The position numbers were made by a program, and so were the translations under genes. Positions 2,774-39,222 of a stretch of DNA of 47,830 nt are shown piece after piece. The notes beneath the pieces were generated by a model. It made no database searches and was not told the DNA's origin. It saw only the letters and a program-made list of their open reading frames with translations. Each line of letters begins with the position of its first letter. The stretch's first letter is position 1. This stretch comes from Mucidula mucida (lineage: Eukaryota > Basidiomycota > Agaricomycetes > Agaricales > Physalacriaceae): NCBI GenBank assembly GCA_015501055.1, contig JADNYV010000271.1:1-47830 (forward strand), given 5' to 3'.

Positions 2774-3501
2774 GGTGGTGGTTACAGTTTGACCCTGCCG
2801 GCCTCTTTCGTACCACGCTCACAAAGTCATCGTCTCGACTGTTGGCCTCGAATACACGACTCGATACGCCGGCTGAGCACCTGCGTGAATGGCTCCCTTA
2901 ACGAGGGTATTAACGAGCCACAGGTGACAATGTGCGTTCACACGGATAATCTACGCGTTGTAGCACCATAACACGGACGACGACTCCTACCGTTCTGGGA
3001 CTTGCAGGCTTGAATGCTGCCCAACATGGCTGGTGTAACTCAACACGGTGAGTACGGCCCACTTTCGACAAGGGCGTGGTAGATACTGACATGATCGACG
3101 TATCCAGATGAATATGACAATATTCCCGAGGATGCTTTTGGCGAGGAATGTAGTCCTAACGCCAAGCTCTGGCGGATCTATATGAACGAAGCCCAAATTC
3201 TGGACAACGCGATGACCAAAGACTTGAGTGAGAACGCGGATGTGCTCCTTGTTTTTGTATGTATCGCGATACATTCTAAGCTGCTTCAAATTCAAGTAGG
3301 GTGCACATAGTCTGGTCTTTTTTCCGCGGTCGTTACTGCTTTCGTGGCCATGACCTCTCAAAACCTGCAGATGGAATATGCTCCCATAACTGCAGAGCTG
3401 ATGTTCAAAATGGTTCAGCTCCAGCGGGCGGCTTTGGATGGCTCTGATAGCGCATCCGTACAGCCTTCATCCTGGACTCCCGCCTCCTCTTTCTTGCCAT
3501 C
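1977..3501. repeat. Inverted segmental duplication, arm A
   Basis: This arm holds DCTN5 copy A, the intergenic promoter region and the 5' part of a DUF6535 gene. The mirror arm is at about 22037-23438 on the opposite strand. Similarity starts near the DCTN5 stop codon and ends near 3501 within the third DUF6535 exon, where this arm switches to unrelated AT-rich sequence. The intergenic spacer here is 252 bp, against 132 bp in the other arm. Boundaries were judged by eye. Confidence 0.9.
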
Positions 3502-3793
3502 AAAGGTTGTCGGCGAGTACCCCTTTGTAGAGGACATTCGGTTTCATGCTACGTATACAAAGCAGGAGAAGTTAATCACTGCAATGGGCATTTATGCTGT
3601 TCAAAACAAAGCAAAATTAAATACCATTGAAACACATGTTATAAGGAATCACAACCCGATTTTATTAGCAGCCGCAAACCAATTTCAACCATCAAAAGTT
3701 GAGCTCAAGTTTGTAAAAAATGCGATGGACATCTTCAAAACTGGACGAAGACCTTCAAATATGGCAGTTGATCGCCGTGCAAGTATGTACTAA
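3026..3793 (+). pseudogene. Truncated DUF6535 gene fused to unrelated tail
   Basis: The first three exons (3026-3047, 3108-3256, 3311-3793) match the start of the full DUF6535 gene at 22506: MAGVTQHDEYDNIPEDAFG, then ENADVLLVF, then SGLFSAVVTAFVAMTSQ. Both introns are GT-AG. After TPASSFLPS (about 3501) similarity stops, just before the expected transmembrane segments, and the frame runs on through an AT-rich tail (VVGEYPFVEDIRFHATYTKQ and onward) to a stop at 3791-3793. The predicted 217-residue protein would lack all membrane segments. I read it as a truncated duplicate that captured foreign sequence. It might be translated, but DUF6535 function is unknown. The tail matches no family I recognise. 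Confidence 0.75.
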
Positions 3794-4910: not shown

Positions 4911-7584
4911 CTACAACATGGTATGATTGAACAAAACTCGCCTAGCGGAACTAGTATGCTCAAGAAGCTTGGCGCCACTCCCCTCCAACTTCGAAGCTAT
5001 CTGTGTCCGTTGTTCCTCTGAGAGGTCCGCGCCCTGGATCATTATGGCCAGGAGGTTGGGAGCCTTCGGCGCATCAATAGCAATATCGTCCAGGAACTCG
5101 GCAACAGACGCTATGCCTTGCTCGAACGCCGCTGGGGCGCATAAACCCTTGGACGACGCACGCGCAAACAAGTCCCCAACAAGCTGTGCGTCAGCCTCCT
5201 TCGACTTGATCGCAAAAGAAACCAACTTGTCGACCAAGAGGTGATGGTACGATGCGGGTAGTGAGCTGAAGTAGTCTTCTGCCTCATCCAAGTTCCGGAC
5301 CGCGAAGAACTCTTTCAGGTCCTCCTCAATCTTCTTCTTGGCATCCGCGACAGCCATCTCCGGTGCAGCGCTCTCCTCAGTCGGGGATTCCACCTCATCG
5401 TCAGATCCTTGCTCAGTTTCCGCGGTGGTGGATTCCACGGGCTTGGATCGAGGCGCCAACACAAGTTTCTTCCGTTGAGCAAATGCTAACGACAGACATC
5501 AGTCAAAGAAAATCAAGCGAACAAATCATGTAGCATACCTTTTGGTGCAGATGACTCGGCGGAAGCCTCAGAGTTCTGGAGCATCGAGAAGATATTCTGC
5601 GATGAGGAGTTTGTTCGCTCTATTGATTCACGCTTGTCCTTCTTGCCAGAGGAAAAAGTGCTCTGAGAACCAAACGTCATCCGTGCAGTCGAACCCTTGC
5701 TGATTTGGCCGAACTTCGACAAGTCGCCAGCCTTGGGAGGTGCACGAGGCGCGGATCCAGCGGTGGTCCAACCATCTGGACCGACTTGCTGTTGATCTCC
5801 ACGGTCACCGCCGCGTCTGGATCCACCACGAGACATCATCATTTGGCGCTGATACAACTCTTTCTGGGCCTTAACCTCCCTCTCCCTAGGAGCGCTGAGA
5901 AAACCGCGCGCATCTGAACTCATGACCGAAGTTTCACCGACATCTGGAATCCCCGTATCTCTGCGAAAGCTAAACGGAAGCCGATGTGGCTTCGAGAGCT
6001 CCAACAGCTTGGCACGATATTCTTGCGACTTGGCTGCTATCTTCTCGCGTCGCACATCCGACATTCCAGCGCCCTTCATCATGATCGCCAGAAGACCAGG
6101 AGCACTCGGCGCGTCAATCGCGATATCATCAAGGAATTCAGCTGTGAGCGCAAGACCCTCCTCAAACGCCGCTGGGGAACACAACCCCTTCGACGCCGCA
6201 CGGGTGAATAAATCTACCACAAGCCGCGCGTCCGCCTCGGTCGACTCGACAGACGAGTAGACAAGGTCGTCGACTAGTAGATAATGGTGTACGGCTGGTA
6301 ACTCGACGAAGTAGAGTTCTGCCTCCTCCAAGTTCCGAGTCGCGAAAAACTCCTTTTTGTACTGGTGAATCTTCTCCTTTGCCTCGGAAACTGACATCTC
6401 GGAAGACTGGCTAATGTCAGACTCCAATTCACTACTGAACGTGGGGTATCTAGACTGCCTGCATTGGGAGCCATGTTGTGAGGCCTTGTTACTGTCATTT
6501 CGCTTCGCGCCACACTTGCTGCCCATAGAAGTAGCCGAGCGCTTGTCGGCCTTGGAGGAATTGGTGCCAAAGCTGCCCATGCCCATGTTAAAGGAATTGA
6601 AGGCCTTGCCGAACAAGCGTGGAGGGGAACCACTGACGGAAGCTTGACATCGAGGTGCTGAGGCGCGACGACGGCCTGCACCTCCTCGGCTCATGGGGAA
6701 GTTGCCTTCTGCAGGCTCGAGACCAATGTCATCGAGAGGAGGAAGCATATCGGGCTTTTCCTTGCAGATAGACATAAATTGCAACAAGAAAGTACGATCA
6801 TATCTGTAGAATGAACATTATAGAAAGCCCAGCTCGGAGGCAAGGCGCATACCTGAACTTGCCGTCCTTTGCGCCTATATTGAGCTCGGCGCTGGGTTTC
6901 CTAACGCCATCGGGGTAGGGAACGCTACTAAGATCACGGATGATACGAGCAGTAGTGAGTGCAGAGGGGGGGTTTTGGATCGTCAAGAGATCGGTGAGGC
7001 CTGCGGAGGGCAGCTCTGCAGCGACCGTATGATTGGGCGGTGCTTGCTGGGGCGACATTTGTTCAGGTTGCGGCATATACCATCCCGAATAACCATAAGC
7101 AGCATGTGGCTGGCCCTCCATGGGCGCAGGATACTACGCACGAGGTCAGATAAGGTTAATATTAGCTTGATAAACCTACATCTTCTTGACCCCATGGTTG
7201 CTTGGGCGGCTGCATTTGTGGTGGCGACATTTTGGTCGGTGGAGGATGTGAAGATAATCGAGGGCTACCCATCTGAGGAGACCCAGTAGGACCACTAGGC
7301 ATCCGTGAAGCGGCACCGGAAGGGGGCAGCGAAGGGGGTGTCGAAGCCGACGCTGATAACGAGCCCTGAAACAATTTCGCTATATCCACTTTGCCTACCT
7401 TTGTTACCGTAGAGCTCGCTGGTCTGATGCGAGTCTGCACGGCCGATTTGCCATTAACCTGGCTCACTGTAGCCGGACGAGCGCCAAAATATTCGACGCC
7501 TTTAGACTTGAATGGTGGGGTCGGGGTAGGGGCGGGTGATGAAGAAATCGGTGTGTTGACATCGTCAATCGATTCAAAAGACAT
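4911..7584 (-). CDS. eIF4G-like protein with MIF4G replaced by an MA3 domain
   Basis: Four exons (7180-7584, 6853-7133, 5539-6803, 4911-5485) splice in frame to 841 residues. Regions shared with fungal eIF4G, in order: a Pro-rich N-terminus (SIDDVNTPISSSPAP); a stretch ending LNIGAKDGKFR; the eIF4E-binding motif YDRTFLL (about 230-236, consensus YxxxxL-phi); FMSICKEKPD; a Gly/Ser region (MGMGSFGTNSSK); then MA3 domain 1 (about 365-498); the linker MSRGGSRRGGDRG and VGPDGWTTAGSAPR; QRKKLVLAPRSKPVES; and MA3 domain 2 (about 694-826). Canonical eIF4G has the MIF4G HEAT domain where MA3-1 lies; I find no MIF4G remnant. The two MA3 domains are alike (both contain AEFLDDIAIDAP), so MA3-1 probably arose by internal duplication. 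Exon 1 of eIF4G appears decayed upstream, so the start at 7584 is a best guess. It could bind eIF4E and eIF4A without bridging to the ribosome; that is inference. Confidence 0.82.
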
Positions 7585-7643
7585 GGCAGGGCCTGAGCGA
7601 CCAAGTCAGCTCGCTGTACACTGAAAGAAGGATACGCACGTAC

Positions 7644-7760
7644 CCAATTTGGTGACGCCTAAATTACGCAGGGATTTGAAGGTATACGTTGTCCTAGCAC
7701 ACTAGGACGTCAACGAAGGGGACCAAGCTGTTTTGGATGGGAGTCGGGGACGATCGTGCT
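7644..7760 (-). pseudogene. Decayed exon 1 of the eIF4G-like gene
   Basis: Upstream of the eIF4G-like gene, a donor at 7643 and acceptor at 7593 mark a 51-bp intron in the position where the fragment at 12684 has its first intron. The preceding sequence reads RNLGVTKLG, LGQRIP and LPSKTAWSPS in different frames, resembling the exon-1 pieces of eIF4G, but stops and a frame change separate them. Exon 1 is therefore broken in this copy, and translation probably begins at the ATG at 7584. Confidence 0.55.
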
Positions 7761-11779: not shown

Positions 11780-12684
11780 TCAATGGCATCCCTCGACACT
11801 GTACATGGCCATTGGAGGATTTAGCGGCGACACATCACGAGGCCGTAAATGGGGACCGACAGGCGGTGGTTCCTGGGGCGGTTGTGTCATATACCATCCC
11901 GCATAACCATAACTAGAATATGGCATTGGCATTGGCTGGCCTTCCATGGGCGCATGATACTACGCACGAGGTTAGATAAGGCTAAAAATTAGCTGGATAA
12001 ACATACACAATATTGACTCCATGGTTGCACGGGCGGCTGCATTTGTGGTGGCGGCATGTTGGTCGGTGGAGGATGTGAAGAAACCCGAGCGCTATCCATC
12101 TGAGGAGGCCTACCAGGACCACTAGGCATTCGCGAAGCGGCACCATTCGGTATTGCGTGCGACGAGGAAGGTTGTGCAGCGACTGCTGGCCGCACACTGG
12201 GGTCAGAACGCCGATGACGAGCCCAGAAACAGTTTCGCTTGCCTATCTTTGTTACTGTAGAGCTCTCCGGTCGTTCGGCGGAAGTCTGCACGGTCGATTT
12301 GCCGTTAACCTGGTCCACTGTAGCCGTAACAGTGCATAGAGACTTGACAGGAGGGGCCGGTGATGAGGGAATCGGTGCATTGACATTGTCAATCGATCCA
12401 AAAGACACGGCAGGGCCTGGGCAGCCACATGATCAGCTCTCTGAACGATGAAGGAAAGAAGCGAACGTACCCTGTTTGATAGCGCTTGTATTGCACGACA
12501 CTTCAGCGCCATCTTTGGGAGATATACCCTGACCTGGACGTCGGGAACGGGTCGGATGGGTTAGGATGTCGTACGGGGGCGGCAAGTGAGATCGTGAAGA
12601 CGAACGCGGGCCTGCTGGACAGGCGGACTTTGATGGGAGCTGTGGAGAATTCTTTGGTACCGTTACAGATGAATATTTACTCAT
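11780..12684 (-). pseudogene. eIF4G N-terminal fragment (exons 1-3 only)
   Basis: Three exons (12471-12684, 12007-12416, 11780-11959) splice to an open 267-residue frame. Exon 1 reads MSKYSSVTVPKNSPQ, LPSKSACPAG and GQGISPKDGAEV, typical of the extreme N-terminus of basidiomycete eIF4G. Exon 2 has SFGSIDNVNAPIPSSP and ASRMPSGPGRPPQ; exon 3 has APMEGQPMPMPYSSYGY and a stop at 11780. Relative to the gene at 7584 it lacks about 10 bp encoding VDIAK, which shifts the frame locally before it recovers. The eIF4E-binding motif and all later domains are missing. It is on the same strand as the gene at 4911-7584 and holds the exon 1 that gene has lost, so the two look like reciprocal remnants of a tandem duplicate. 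Confidence 0.72.
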
Positions 12685-12703
12685 TCTACGCCGTCATCGT
12701 CAA

Positions 12704-13264
12704 TCAACACAACGAAAGCATGTAGAAGAACGCACGATTGAACCACCCCAGCATATCGTACACGAGGGAATGAGTCGTGGTTATTAACTCTACTCGCTCG
12801 AAGTACGTCATCAGCCTTTGCGACATGCCTAGCGCCGCGGTAGCATGAAGGGCAGGTGTTTGCAACACAGCGGCGCGCCATCTGCGGCACACGCGAGAGA
12901 GGACGATGATGATAAAGTGCGTCTCCATGACAGACTCTGCCGCGAGGACACCATAGATGAACACGGTCTGGAGAACCGATGTGGGGAGGCGCCGTATAGA
13001 GGAGAGAATGGCCTCGTGCTGGTCTATAGCGTATCGCTCGCCCATCGTGTCCTGTTCAGCGTTAAGCGCCGCCATTTCGATGCGGAGGCGGCGGATCTCG
13101 ATTACGCGATTCTTCGGATACGAGAGGTAGGTTCTAAGGTTGTGTGCGTCTTCAGGACTCGGAGGCCCGTTGGATGTGAGGAGGTGGTTGAAGGGCGCCG
13201 GCATGGCATATGATTGGGAAACTGGGGCGTTGCTTGAGGGCACTTTGTAGCATTGTGAAATCAT
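12704..13264 (-). CDS. Short F-box domain protein
   Basis: A single-exon 186-residue ORF from ATG 13264. An N-terminal helical stretch (RVIEIRRLRIEMAALNAEQ) precedes an F-box-like core: AILSSIRRLPTSVLQTVFIYG and VLSRVCRRWRAAVLQTPALH. These match the fungal F-box family whose members usually run 400-600 residues with C-terminal leucine-rich repeats. Here the protein ends soon after the F-box, so it is truncated or its later exons have decayed. An intact F-box could still bind Skp1 in an SCF ubiquitin ligase, but a substrate-binding part is not visible. Confidence 0.65.
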   Translation of the reverse strand: MISQCYKVPSSNAPVSQSYAMPAPFNHLLTSNGPPSPEDAHNLRTYLSYPKNRVIEIRRLRIEMAALNAEQDTMGERYAIDQHEAILSSIRRLPTSVLQTVFIYGVLAAESVMETHFIIIVLSRVCRRWRAAVLQTPALHATAALGMSQRLMTYFERVELITTTHSLVYDMLGWFNRAFFYMLSLC

Positions 13265-13856
13265 CTTGATATTGTATTAGCACGCTGACAAGAGATGTAG
13301 CGCTCACCATGAGAGTTGCCTGCTAATTGATGGCCGTCAAGAGAAAGAAGGTCCTACCTGCTGTCGTCATTCCGATCCAAGCTGGCGCGTCTTGCCGAGG
13401 TGCTGAGGGGGACTTGACCTTAAATTCAGGTCCCGCGGCTATCATCATCAATTGAGATTAAATAATAGTATCGAAAAAGTTTTCTTTCTCAGGGCAGAGC
13501 ACCATACATTGTCCAAGCGCGAATTGACGAGAGCTTGCGTTTGTACGTTGGAGTTGTTGACGTTCAAAGACTTTTTGAGACGAATTCCCACGCTCTTGGT
13601 GATCGAACTAAGTACGTGTGTGATGTTGATCGACAAGCTAGCCTGCACCTCTATCTTCATATCTCGCGCTTCTTGCATTCTCCATTCACCCGTCAGTCAT
13701 TTCCTTTATGGTGAATAAACACAAACAAGCTCGTAAATGTATCTCGTGGTCTGCCTCTTTTCATGGCTCTAGCCGCCTTCGATTTAGGCTGCCAAGGAGA
13801 AGGCTGTCGCTGAGAAGGTATCAGCGCCAAATAACGATGTCTCGTGGTGTATCCAG
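13265..13856. other. Spacer without recognisable gene
   Basis: About 590 bp. Overlapping short ORFs on both strands at 13448-13718 show no known motif. I see no mobile-element ends. Confidence 0.4.
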
Positions 13857-13959
13857 ACGGAAGAAACTTGTGTTGGCGCCTCGATCCGAGCTTATGGAAT
13901 CCACCACCGCGGAAAATGAGTAAGGATCTGACGATGAGGTGGAATCCCCGACTGAAGAG
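13857..13959 (+). pseudogene. eIF4G linker relic
   Basis: About 100 bp nearly identical, in inverse orientation, to the linker just before MA3-2 of the gene at 4911-7584 (reading RKKLVLAPRSELMESTTAE, then DDEVESPTEE). A Gln codon has become a TAA stop (13921-13923). Neither side continues into eIF4G sequence, so it is an isolated fragment without coding capacity. Confidence 0.85.
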
Positions 13960-18621: not shown

Positions 18622-18875
18622 CGAAACTTGTGTTGGCGCCCCGATACAAGCCCATGGGATCCAACACTGCCGACGTTGAGGAAGGATTAGACGATGAGGT
18701 GGAGTCCCCGACTGAGGAGAGCGCTGCACCGGAAAGAACAAGATTGAGGAGATTCTGAAAGAGTTGTTCGCGGTCCGGAAGTTGGATGAGGCAGAAGACT
18801 ACTTCAGCTCACTACTCGCAGTGCACCATCATCTCTTGTTCGACAAATTGGTTTCTTCAGCGATTGAGTCACGAT
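18622..18875 (+). pseudogene. eIF4G linker/MA3 fragment joined to DCTN5 fragment
   Basis: Homologous to the linker and first half of MA3-2 of the gene at 4911-7584, but inverted. It reads KLVLAPRYKPMGSNTAD, DDEVESPTEESAAPE, then after a small deletion ELFAVRKLDEAEDYFSSLL and HHHLLFDKLVSSAIES. The deletion removes the start of MA3 helix 1 and shifts the frame, and the domain is cut off in its middle. It directly abuts the DCTN5 relic without a spacer. Confidence 0.85.
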
Positions 18876-19677: not shown

Positions 19678-22506
19678 CTAATCTGCGCCGTTTTTGATAT
19701 GCCACATGAAATGGAACATCGACCTAAACAGTGTACATCTAGCGAACACGATACTGTAAGGAATTTGAAGACGCACTGCATCAATGAGTTCAAGACTGTT
19801 ACTCTGTAGACGTTCAATATGTCCCGCCAGAAAATCCCTATAACATTTGACGTGCAACTTGATGTCAGCGATTTGTGCAGGTGTATACACTATCATCCTC
19901 TCACTGTCGAAGTCGAAAAACTCGTATTCGATTGGGTCTATCATGTTTGAGAATGCTTCAAGGCTTGCCAGTGCTGTTTTCCAGCGGGCCTGCGCCTCTT
20001 CGGGGCCAAGGGGACACAATTTGATAATCCTGGTCAGGAGGCTCGTCACGACATCGCGAGTCGCTTGAACAGACCCAAATTGCCCGGTGACAATGAGTAG
20101 CGCCGTATACAGATTAGGTGAATGATACAGATATTCTGCGTATGGGCCAACAAACGTCATGTTGTCCTTGGCGCGCAGTAGACCCTGAACATATGCCGCA
20201 ACAATAGAGATATTGTTGGAAAAGAGAAATTTTGTAGCTCCAAGGAATGCGAAGGCGTCAACCTCAAGAAAGGTGGAATAAGTTGTGTCGACGTCTGAGA
20301 TGCACCAATGTTCAGAAATGATTCGGGAGACTACTAGAGAAGAGAGCTTCAGCGAGTTGGACATGCAATCCACGGAGTTTGGATGCAGCCCCAATCTTAT
20401 GAGACTGTTAATGACATCTTCTGAGATGGGCCATCGATGAAGATGGGGCAAAGGTCCGCGACCAGGCTGATTGCTGTTAGGCCTCATAAAACCTAAAGTG
20501 AACAGGGTTCGCTCGCGGATACGCCAGAGACTGTCGTTTTTATGATGGTCCGCGCGATCAGCGAATAAGTCTGAAGAGAGGATGCGATGAATCACATCCT
20601 TAAAGGCCGTGCTGTCCTCTAGAGACAGGCTGCGTTTCGACAGGATTGCGCGCATATTCCGAAGTGCATCGGTGAACAAGGTGCTGCATGTGTCGCAGGT
20701 TGAAACCTCCTCAGCTAGCCGTGTTTTAGGATCGGAGGAGAGCAGATGATCGAGAACGGAAGTAATAACTCGCGTGTGTACGTCGGATGCTGGAAACTGC
20801 ACAAGGATTGTTGTGTCGGATGCTGGAAACTGCGCAAGGATTGTTGTGTCAATTCGCGCTTGAATGGATGGAAGTATCTCTGGGAACGTGAACACTCCAG
20901 TCCGTTCAATCCGAAAATCTGTAGATCGTGGCAGGCCATCATTCGAGTTACACCACATATAGTGACTCCACAGATAGGAAGCACAAAAGCTTTCGGAATC
21001 GGGACTGTGTTCCGCGTGCAGCGTACACATCGAGGCAAGGTCGACACGATCAAAAAAGTCCTGCCAGGTGTACTGAGGAAGCTGGCATTCATCCATTATC
21101 ACTCGTGAAATCATTTTCGCCGGGGAAGGCCAATTCAGTGGATGATCTACTATCCCGCCATGCATCTCCAGCAGTGAAATAACCAACGTGGACAAAAAAT
21201 TATAGTCATTCTGGTAAAAGCCGCTTGGAACCAGACGAGATGTCAAGGGCGCCTCGGAAGCAAGGATAGGTGGGGTGGCAAGACGGCGCTGAACCTGAAG
21301 GAGACGGTTGACTCTGTTCTCCTGACCAGCTCTTGGTTGGTGAAAATAGTTGATAGGCATCAAGCTCTCTTTCAAGAGTCTGTGATGCTGCTCCCATACA
21401 GTACGCTCAGAATTAAGGACACGTTTAAGTGCAGAGACGCTTTTGGGCGGCACGCTTCCCATGGCTTCAATTACAAGTGCCCGGACAGTGGCATTGGACG
21501 AAGTGCGTAAAAGCCACAATATGGCATCTCCATCGAGGGAATCGATTTGATTCTCTATCGTGCGCTGTTCAACAGCATACAGGGTGGACTCAGATGGACT
21601 GTTATTGGGGAAGAACTGGTGCAAAACAGAGTACAAGATGCTGGAAAGAGGCGTCCGATACGGGCAGGATGGATCAATGGTGGACAGTATTACCGTTGCG
21701 GCGTATGCAAGGAAGGTGAGGATGGTGAGAGTAGCAATAGTGATTGCAAGAGAGGACACAAAAGCGAACAGGAAGACGACGAGACCGACGAGGAACATGA
21801 CTAGACCGATGTGTAGGAGGAAGGGAAGAACACCAATGATGACGGGAATGGACCATTTCTGGAAATTGGTGTAGCGAAACTGGCGGATGCGAACATGGTC
21901 AAGTGCAGTGCCAGAACCCGGGGGTTTCGAGACATAATACGAAACCCATTGCTTTGCGAGTACGGCCATCAAAGCTGCGATAAGACTAACTGTCAGGCTG
22001 GTGAACCAGAGCCCGTTCACGCAGACGTCAGTTAGAGATGGAGAGAAAGAGGCGGTGGGAGTCCAAGATGAAGGCTGTACGGATGCACCGTCAGAGCCAT
22101 TCAAAGCCGCCCGCTGCAGCTGAACCATCTCGAACATCAGCGCGGCAGTTACGGGGACGTAGTCCATCTGCAGGCTTTGAGATGTCATGGCAACAAAACC
22201 AGCAACGACCGCAGAAAAAAGACCAGACTGTGCGCACTCTACTTGAGTCTGGAGCAACGTAGAATTTATTGAGGACGTACGAAAACAAGGAGCACATCCG
22301 CATTCTCAGTCAACTCTTTGGTCATCGCGTTGTCCAGAATTTGAGCTTCGTTCATGTAGACCTGCCAGAGTTTGGCGTTAGGACTACATTCCTCACCAAA
22401 AGCATCCTCGGGAATATTGTCATATGCATCTGGGTGCGTCGGGCATGTCAGCATTACGCTCTTGTCGAAAGTGGCCGTACTCGCCGTGCTGAGTTACACC
22501 AGCCAT
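19678..22506 (-). CDS. DUF6535 membrane protein, full length
   Basis: A basidiomycete-specific family of unknown function. Three exons (22485-22506, 22281-22429, 19678-22227) give 906 residues. The conserved N-terminal domain reads AYDNIPEDAFGEECSPNAKLW, NADVLLVF, SGLFSAVVAGFVAMTSQSLQ, LVQLQRAALNGSD-type sequence, VNGLWFTSLTVSLIAALMAV (TM1), AKQWVSYYVSKP, then two or three hydrophobic segments (VIIGVLPFLLHIGLVMFLVG; SSLAITIATLTILTFLAYAA) and CPYRTPLSSILY. About 650 residues of alpha-helical cytoplasmic-type sequence follow. Intron 1 has a GC donor (GCGAGT), where the truncated copy at 3026 has GT. The gene is intact, and its first third is duplicated at 3026-3501. It shares a 132-bp intergenic region with DCTN5 copy B. 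Confidence 0.88.
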
Positions 22507-23438
22507 GGTGGGCAGTTTTCAAGCCCGGTGTCGAATGCACGACAAACAGCTCATGCAGCATCCTCGACAGGCAGAATGGAAGCTTACGCCTTGTGGTGGT
22601 ACGAAAGATACCGGCAGGGTCAGTCTGCAACCACCACCATGTCCCTCGAGCCGCCCATCTACTACTCCAAATCCGAGTTTATCGAGACAGTGCGGCTGCC
22701 TTGCTGATAGTCAACGCGTACAACGACCGACGCGCTCTTCTAGGACACGGGAAACAAGGTGTCGCGTCGAGCGACCATTGCTGGGCCGCAGAATATCATC
22801 CTTGGCGGCAAGACTATTATCTCGAGCTCGGCGATTATCAGAGGCGATCTCAGACGTTCTGGGCCAGGCCATGCTGTGGTTATATCGTTGGGAAGGTATT
22901 GCTTGGTGGGCGAGGGATGTGTGATGCGGTACGCCGTCAAACCTTTCATTGGAGTTTTTATCAACAACTTGCATTTTCAGTCCTCCTTATAAAACGTACC
23001 GCGGCGCCTTCAATTACTACCCAATGAAAGTCGGCGACCATGTCCACATTGGTAAAGACTCGGTCGTTGAAGCAGCAACGATAGGGAACCATGTCGAAAT
23101 AGGCAAGGGGTGTGTCATTGTAAGGCTTCCGCTTTCTCCTCGTACTTCCTTTGTCTTGAACGAATTTAGGGCAAGTTTGTGATAATCAAGGACTGTGCAA
23201 AGATTGCAGACAACACTGTTGTTCCCGCCAATACAGTCGTCCCAGCACTTGCGCTTTTCGCTGGATCACCGGGTACCGCAAGCTTTGTTACTATCAGTTA
23301 CACATAGCTTATGTCGGTTTGATAGCTCAATTCGTCGAGGATTTACCCGAGTCGACACAGGAACTTGTGGAGAGCCACACCAAACAATATTACATGCGCT
23401 TCCAGCCTCTCGATCCTGCTCGAGGACGACCGACATGA
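22037..23438. repeat. Inverted segmental duplication, arm B
   Basis: Mirror image of arm A (about 1977-3501). It contains the 5' part of the intact DUF6535 gene and the whole of DCTN5 copy B. Because DUF6535 is complete only here, this arm is probably the parental one. Confidence 0.9.
22639..23438 (+). CDS. DCTN5: Dynactin subunit 5 (p25), copy B
   Basis: Five exons (22639-22689, 22744-22928, 22981-23119, 23170-23272, 23308-23438) with the same phases as copy A give 202 residues, again starting MSLEPPIYYSKSEFIET and containing the beta-helix repeats (ILGGKTIISSSAIIRGDLRR; HVHIGKDSVVEAATIG). The 35-bp last intron is conserved. Differences from copy A are mostly silent or intronic; the last exon has Ile for Lys after GL and ends GRPT rather than GRQT. 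Both copies look functional, so this haploid sequence encodes p25 twice. Gene order and spacing to DUF6535 match arm A in reverse. Confidence 0.93.
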
Positions 23439-24725
23439 CGACGTCGCTCCGGGCACATTTTTTGACTTGATCCTACTCTATGTACACTATAGCACCTCTG
23501 CCATTCACTGTCGTAATATCTTGGGGCTAACCCTCCTCAACCCTTCCTTCACTCGTCATTGTCAACATATCTCCTACATGGTACTGAAGGTGGTTCGCCT
23601 CGCCTTATTGACCTTTATTCCCTAGACTCTGAAGAGCACTGATCTCGGAACCCGAATGTTAACACCCGCGCTACAGACGACCAGAGTCCGACAATGCACC
23701 AGGATTTGCTCTTCATTGTAATATCTTCTTGCTCGTCTGTCGAGCAAGGCCAACGCTTTCACGTTCAATGATGATACATTCAAGTGGATTCTGCGACAGA
23801 CCACAGCTCATTTAATGTCTTCAACGCTCGTATACTTCAGAACTGATCTTAGCATGAGCCTTTCGTGCACGCTAAGATCACGCAGGCATGCCGGAGTAGA
23901 GTCGTTCTGCGTCGCCATTGTCATCTCGAGGTGCGTGGGTCCAACAGTGAGATTGAACATTTACATGCGTTTCTTCTGTGACGTGTGCTGCACTCAGCAT
24001 CTTTTCGTTTCAAAAGAAGTTGACTTCGTCAGAAACTTTGCCTCTCGCGCCTTAACAAGTTCTGATGTATCCGGCTTATATATCTTGTCTACAGGCCATT
24101 TGTGGATCAAATAGTTATACGGAAGGCATCGCACGTCGGCGGGATGTGCCTCGAATTTCTAAATGATTATGCAATCCCGCCCATCCCGCCTTTCAATTCG
24201 GCACTGTTGCGTACCGTTCATACGGTCCGGTGTGGAATCCGTGGCCATTCAGTGGGCATGAGTACAACGCATCCGATTGGCTCACTTTGTCTTGCTCATC
24301 TACATATGCTTCGGGCTTATCTTTGTGCGCAACCCTCACGGTCCTGTCGGTTAGGCTGAATGGGGTGATATTTGACGCCGAGTGAGCAATAAGCGCTGCT
24401 ACTATATAGAGGATTTTCCCTCTCCCGGGGTGGATCACACTGTCAGCTTGGGTGGGTCTCAAGTGCATGTTCCCCACAGACCGTGGCCGAAACCTGGTCT
24501 GCTAATTTGGTATCGCGCATACAACATACAGGAGCTGATGGATGGTGTTGAATTGGTGCGGAAAGCCGTTAAGAGGTCCTTGTGGCACGAGAGCAGGAGC
24601 GAGATGACTCACCGTCACGGCGTGACGATAGATCCGTACCTATTTCAGCACCCTATCAATCTCTCTTTAGAATACCCACTACGAACGCACCCATATACCT
24701 CGCCGGTCCTTAATTGCCCTTCGCC
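23439..24725. other. Spacer between DCTN5-B and NMNAT
   Basis: About 1.3 kb. ORFs at 23622-23804 (minus) and 23815-24114 (plus) are short and show no domain I recognise. The sequence beyond the DCTN5 stop is not shared with arm A. I see no terminal repeats. Confidence 0.4.
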
Positions 24726-38853: not shown

Positions 38854-39222
38854 CTGAGCGGGCTGGGTCAAACAAGGATACACAACCGCTTGAGCCGACT
38901 CAATGCGAGCGGCGAATCACAGTGTACTGATTGACAATCAAAGCGTCAATATAACGTTAGCGCTCAAGGTGGTTGGGAAGGTTGAATTGACGCTGCATTC
39001 GCGTCCGTACGGCACCATGTAGCGGCGGCTGCGTCAGCATTCATTTGTGTTCAGATATAACGGGCTCCGAAAAGTAGTCTTGACAATGACCATCGACGAA
39101 TCAGTTATCGGATGCCACTGGCCGAAGTACAAAACTGTGCGACTGTGAATGGCGATTTTCATAGTAGCCCGAAGCTTAGGAGAAAGTTGCTGAAGAAACA
39201 TATATACCACGAAGCTTCAAAG

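Follow-up and report, generated by a model that had tools for sequence, protein, structure and literature searches.

Can a copy of the translation initiation scaffold eIF4G that has lost its MIF4G domain still be a working gene, and what might its product do? The question is raised by a gene on the minus strand of a 47,830-nucleotide stretch of Mucidula mucida DNA (contig JADNYV010000271.1; the window), in which a second MA3 domain occupies the place of MIF4G. The copy is a real, unusual paralog. It is quite possible, though short of probable, that it is a nearby duplicate of eIF4G whose MIF4G domain was replaced by a diverged MA3 domain and whose product is predicted to repress cap-dependent translation. 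If the protein is made and works as proposed, one gene would join the capture of eIF4E with that of eIF4A, two known brakes on initiation, and a scaffold would have become its own inhibitor through the loss of one domain.

Gene structure and domain content

An 841-residue spliced frame, rebuilt from the DNA exactly as the original prediction had given it, runs along the minus strand from 7584 to 4911, where it ends. Its four exons (7584–7180, 7133–6853, 6803–5539 and 5485–4911) are separated by three short introns, all GT...AG. A search of the Mucidula mucida genome (59.9 Mb in 1047 contigs) located the canonical eIF4G gene on a second contig, at C61:434938–439592; it encodes MIF4G and one MA3 domain, and its spliced translation of 1448 residues equals protein P0001 exactly. 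The window is collinear with C61:371106–432723 at ~95–99% identity, except for diverged stretches and gaps that include a 1.5-kb stretch at 73% identity and a 14-kb gap, and we therefore take it to be the second haplotype of this region. On C61 the normal gene lies ~56 kb from the copy, 2.2 kb beyond the end of the window's match. The C61 allele of the copy has the same layout and an open frame, with a 90-bp in-frame deletion (window 5364–5453). An artefact of gene modelling or assembly is ruled out, both contigs having the same introns and the same MIF4G-free exon.

Exon 1 (7180–7584) begins with an ATG, at a position occupied by GTG (valine) in the normal gene, and retains a SFxSIDDVNxPISSSPA box. 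Intron 1 (46 nt, 7134–7179) stands at the position of intron 2 of the normal gene; in exon 2 (6853–7133), ~340 residues of the normal protein, including a K/E-rich part, are absent. Intron 2 (49 nt, 6804–6852) corresponds in position to intron 3 of the normal gene. Exon 3 (5539–6803) encodes the eIF4E-binding motif, a linker, the first MA3 domain (MA3-1), a unique stretch and a second linker. Intron 3 (53 nt, 5486–5538), at the place of the normal gene's last intron, is also implied by the public model P0139, and exon 4 (4911–5485), which carries the second MA3 domain (MA3-2), runs to the stop codon.

It had also been claimed that MIF4G is missing, that a second MA3 domain replaces it between eIF4G linkers, and that the eIF4E-binding motif YDRTFLL is kept; all of this was borne out. 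Pfam matched eIF_4G1 (PF12152) at residues 185–247 (E 3e-17), within which the motif lies (residues 230–236; 6782–6802), and MA3 in two stretches. MIF4G (PF02854) gave no Pfam match in the copy up to E 1. Nor was it found with our own profile, which, like the others used here, was built from the normal eIF4G gene of the same fungus and scores 5e-153 on that neighbouring gene; a hidden or diverged MIF4G is thus ruled out by two profiles. Our profiles placed the eIF4E region at residues 188–251, MA3-1 at 369–474 (6068–6385), the linker that separates MIF4G from MA3 in the normal protein at 546–639 (5573–5854), and MA3-2 at 698–804 (5025–5345), leaving 223 residues between the two MA3 domains. 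Both flanking linkers are present, the one before MA3-1 with SKxGxKRNDSNKASQHGS and the one after it with SRGGSRRGGDRG...QQQVGPDGW, the latter 93% identical to the normal gene. A search of NCBIfam returned nothing informative. The copy thus has the eIF4E-binding region, with its Y-x4-L-phi motif, and the C-terminal MA3 domain of an eIF4G; because MIF4G was looked for and is absent, it is not an eIF4G scaffold.

Origin from the neighbouring gene

Since three introns of the normal gene are kept at common places, the copy is a DNA duplicate, and the likeness goes beyond chance: 911 bp of its C-terminal block match the normal gene with 95% DNA identity. Two losses absent from the original prediction are those of residues 1–77 of normal eIF4G and of the ~340-residue stretch with its K/E-rich part; a 180-bp piece is missing in addition to MIF4G. 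Most of the first exon is lost. A decayed remnant of its end and of its intron persists (7585–7711), with 14-bp and 1-bp indels, and the start of the frame is a GTG that has become ATG. The eIF4E exon of the copy is joined to sequence from within the normal gene's MA3 exon. Also new here are the ~48 codons that lie between MA3-1 and the next linker (5866–6010); this in-frame stretch matches nothing else in the genome and contains the Met with which the 289-residue public model starts.

Synonymous divergence (dS) from the normal gene is 0.18 in the N-terminus, 0.46 in the eIF4E region and ~2, near saturation, in MA3-1, and falls to ~0.07–0.09 in the linker and MA3-2. MA3-1 is 64% identical to the normal gene and the linker with MA3-2 93%; the block containing MA3-2 has 94% identity with the normal MA3 exon. 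A tract of ~40 bp in MA3-2, common to both alleles, differs from the normal gene 8 times; by visual comparison, 5 of these differences equal MA3-1. Because the divergence is patchy and this tract resembles MA3-1, the copy is probably an older duplicate partly refreshed by gene conversion.

A tree of 125 MA3 domain copies, drawn from the first 138 retrieved proteins and the copy with short matches dropped, and excluding PDCD4 and the CWC22-like and NOM1-like domains, places MA3-1 and MA3-2 among mushroom eIF4G MA3 domains. Derivation of MA3-1 from another MA3 gene is therefore not supported, its exact place within the group hanging on a weak branch (0.42). Nor is derivation from a nearby inverted MA3 fragment (C61:389614–390093), which has 83% DNA identity with the normal MA3 region as against 69% for MA3-1. 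At 8 sites in the C-terminal block the window allele equals normal eIF4G and C61 differs, the reverse occurring at none; 6 of the 8 adjoin the 90-bp deletion (window 5300–5360), which may reflect recent gene conversion.

Predicted activity of the retained parts

The eIF4E box of the copy aligns with the eIF4G chains of 6FBZ/6FC0 and 1RF8, which we take to be the Chaetomium and yeast proteins solved with eIF4E. The core of MA3-1 is predicted to form a confident MA3 fold (predicted local distance difference test, pLDDT, 95–98 by blocks), whose best structural matches are the MA3 domains of PDCD4 and eIF4GI. An acidic pair aligning with that of PDCD4 is kept in MA3-1, at a position that is presumably the eIF4A face of PDCD4.

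In excerpts of PMC3850090, MIF4G is described as required for translation and MA3 as a regulatory eIF4A-binding site in eIF4G; a single MA3 domain of PDCD4 inhibits, and both are needed for good competition. Excerpts of a preprint (PMC13081929) describe a MIF4G-less eIF4G1 fragment as a dominant repressor if bound to both eIF4E and PABP. From the requirement for MIF4G, the inhibition by PDCD4 MA3 domains and the repression by this fragment, we infer that the copy could act as a brake. A full-length mRNA would be made, the eIF4E box of its product would bind eIF4E, and both MA3 domains would bind eIF4A in the manner of PDCD4. Without MIF4G, the eIF4E/eIF4A complex would be a dead end to which the small ribosomal subunit is not recruited, and the holding of eIF4E and eIF4A in that complex would repress cap-dependent translation. 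The copy may work like a fusion of a 4E-BP and PDCD4. By analogy with these systems a repressor role is plausible, and it is the best single explanation.

Function or decay

The original prediction had suggested that the frame has not simply decayed, and this is supported. In both alleles exons 1–3 read through without interruption, and their splice sites are conserved. All indels in the coding part are multiples of three (9 of 9 events, a neighbouring 4+2 pair counting as one), compared with 0 of 6 in the decayed exon and the introns. These counts exclude six gaps that lie at the stop or at the edges of blocks, and by simple arithmetic a division this clean would arise by chance in 1 of 5005 cases. 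Had the sequence drifted neutrally for half of dS, all blocks would be free of stops with a probability of 0.0006, in a model that set the dS of MA3-1 to 1.0 and ignored gene conversion. Measured against the normal gene, and so including that gene's own constraint, the ratio of nonsynonymous to synonymous divergence (dN/dS) is 0.13 (0.07–0.24) in MA3-1 and 0.31 (0.19–0.51) in the eIF4E region.

Several points weigh against a working repressor, beginning with that share of the normal gene's constraint in the ratios. The N- and C-terminal blocks have dN/dS of 0.59 (0.29–1.14) and 0.45 (0.21–0.97), values near those that neutrality permits, and their amino-acid identity falls within what simulated neutral change over half of dS produces. 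The allele differences, 10 nonsynonymous and 5 synonymous (NG86 ratio 0.62), are near neutral; 5 of the 10 sit beside the 90-bp deletion, and taken together these differences would neither prove nor rule out present constraint. The exon that carried the original start has decayed and no longer provides one; the frame opens at the Val-to-Met change. P0139, the 289-residue public model of the C61 allele, is without the eIF4E box and MA3-1. The MA3 domains of PDCD4 are fewer than 20 residues apart (chains 157–305 and 323–450), in contrast to 223 in the copy, and the human eIF4G1 fragment, in the excerpts of PMC13081929, needs PABP binding to repress.

Some of these observations would also suit a relic, now functionless, of local segmental duplication, in which eIF4G parts were duplicated, shuffled and gene-converted, and whose frame is open because it is mostly young or was formerly constrained. 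Such a relic, which we regard as conceivable but doubtful, would account for the decayed start exon, for allele differences near neutral with a 90-bp deletion in one allele, and for the three other pieces of eIF4G found in this stretch, some of which contain stops; patchy divergence suggests conversion, and a C-terminal dS of ~0.07–0.09 leaves little time for decay. However, MA3-1 (dS ~2) and the eIF4E region (dS 0.46) are more diverged and yet constrained and stop-free, coding indels keep the frame where adjoining non-coding indels do not, and the deletion in the other allele is itself in frame. It is improbable that only the 3' half is a gene, encoding a 289-residue protein of linker and one MA3 domain from Met 524, with the 5' half as untranslated debris. 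P0139 has exactly that extent, starting inside the unique stretch at this internal Met, and is consistent with both intron 3 and the 90-bp deletion; the open exons 1–3 of both alleles with their conserved splice sites, and the constraint on MA3-1, argue otherwise. P0139, which covers the last 289 residues, about the last third, is the only public model found, and no full-length model was among the matches listed (proteins of 463–1472 residues were admitted); automatic annotation can hide such genes. Very unlikely, in our estimate, is a specialised, non-repressive part of eIF4F, a helper rather than a brake, which would bind eIF4E at the cap and bring eIF4A to selected mRNAs or pass them to normal eIF4G. 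The kept eIF4E box, linker and MA3 would be in line with such a role, as would the regulatory eIF4A-binding site that the MA3 domain of normal eIF4G constitutes (PMC3850090, in excerpt), but the part required for translation, MIF4G, is absent and two MA3 domains are the make-up of the PDCD4 inhibitor.

Genomic setting

The genome searches for MIF4G and MA3 returned at least 7 and at least 8 matches, respectively. These comprise the normal eIF4G, the copy on both contigs and three further MIF4G loci, two of them also with MA3 (C160 and C668 being counted as one locus). We take the three to be of the UPF2, CWC22 and NOM1 types, the MA3-bearing two being the CWC22-like and NOM1-like ones. No PDCD4-like gene was seen among these matches.

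Three more eIF4G-derived fragments lie in the window, at 11804–12720 (minus strand), 13732–13959 (plus) and 18623–18870 (plus). They consist of an N-terminal piece and inverted linker/MA3 pieces, and the stretch appears to be a local hotspot of eIF4G duplication. DUF6535 genes or fragments flank the copy at 19681–22305 (minus) and 3311–3790 (plus), with inverted repeats near them: window 1973–3501 matches inverted near C61:393.2–394.6 kb, and window 22037–23442 near C61:373–374.5 kb. About 14 kb (C61:410210–424087) is present in one haplotype and missing from the other (window 39202–39205).

Mushroom relatives and known systems

Relatives were sought among 243 proteins, taken from the best 120 of 123, 48 of 48 and best 120 of 278 matches. 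Seven have the eIF4E region without MIF4G (four with one MA3 and three without), 12 have at least two MA3 matches, several of them partial, and 81 are fragments with MA3 alone; the eIF4E region with two MA3 domains and no MIF4G occurs in 0 of the 243. The layout had been called unfamiliar among described eIF4G variants, which holds for the exact combination and does not hold for its elements, as MIF4G-less and tandem-MA3 eIF4G proteins are predicted in other mushrooms. All of these are predicted proteins, in which a predicted intron could mimic the loss of MIF4G. No title or abstract opening among the matches listed concerns a MIF4G-less fungal eIF4G, though one may still be in print.

MIF4G-less predicted copies are found also in Armillaria, Athelia and Daedalea, and open the question to comparison. 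The Armillaria proteins P0013, P0142 and P0146, like the Mucidula copy, have the post-motif eIF4E region, the linker and MA3 without MIF4G, and are 85–92% identical among A. ostoyae, A. solidipes and A. gallica; this paralog, known here from predicted proteins alone, has one MA3 domain as opposed to two. Two of the three, P0142 and P0146, start immediately downstream of the eIF4E motif; neither belongs to the seven. In the MA3 tree, which is without these two, P0013 groups with Armillaria and Desarmillaria and not with Mucidula, the copies from Athelia fall with that genus, and the one from Daedalea joins the additional MA3 domains seen in Daedalea and Rhodofomes. Because the MA3 domains of MIF4G-less copies group by their own lineages, the losses of MIF4G look independent; descent from one ancestral gene is not supported for P0013, P0023, P0053 and P0108. 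The eIF4G proteins P0121, P0122, P0033 and P0041 of Daedalea and Rhodofomes have two or three MA3 domains and, unlike the copy, retain MIF4G; the last MA3 domains of these proteins, from both genera, cluster in a separate clade with good support. In A. ostoyae, P0105, which fuses a BTB domain to an eIF4G-like N-terminus and MA3, adjoins P0013 (locus tags ARMOST_01238/01239), and in the mushroom proteins P0073, P0088, P0115 and P0124 eIF4G pieces are joined to kinase domains.

It is rather unlikely that eIF4G was converted repeatedly among mushrooms into an antagonist of itself, with the Mucidula copy blocking both eIF4E and eIF4A. On such an account MIF4G would have been cut out, the eIF4E site and the eIF4A-binding end kept, and, in Mucidula, a second MA3 domain put where MIF4G had been. 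A fused 4E-BP/PDCD4 would then derive from the very scaffold it opposes, one such mushroom being without a detectable PDCD4.

The copy shares with normal eIF4G (P0001) the eIF4E box, the linkers, the C-terminal MA3 and three intron places, but has two MA3 domains and no MIF4G where P0001 has MIF4G and one MA3. PDCD4, an animal translation inhibitor, has two MA3 domains of the same fold with the same acidic pair; those of the copy derive from eIF4G and are linked to an eIF4E-binding box. Judged by its sequence, the copy is not PDCD4 by descent, since in the tree, which has no PDCD4 sequences, both MA3 domains fall among those of mushroom eIF4G and the remaining protein is eIF4G. At the sequence level it also resembles repressors of the 4E-BP type, with an eIF4E-binding motif and no MIF4G scaffold. 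The eIF4G1 fragment produced by enteroviral 2A is the N-terminal part only, without MA3. This fragment is, like the copy, an eIF4E-binding part without MIF4G (PMC13081929, in excerpt), but it is made by a protease, whereas the copy is gene-encoded. DAP5/eIF4G2, like the copy, is an eIF4G paralog with an altered domain set, in which the loss is reversed: the eIF4E site is absent, according to excerpts of PMC9977666, and MIF4G is present (4IUL), the opposite of what is found in Mucidula.
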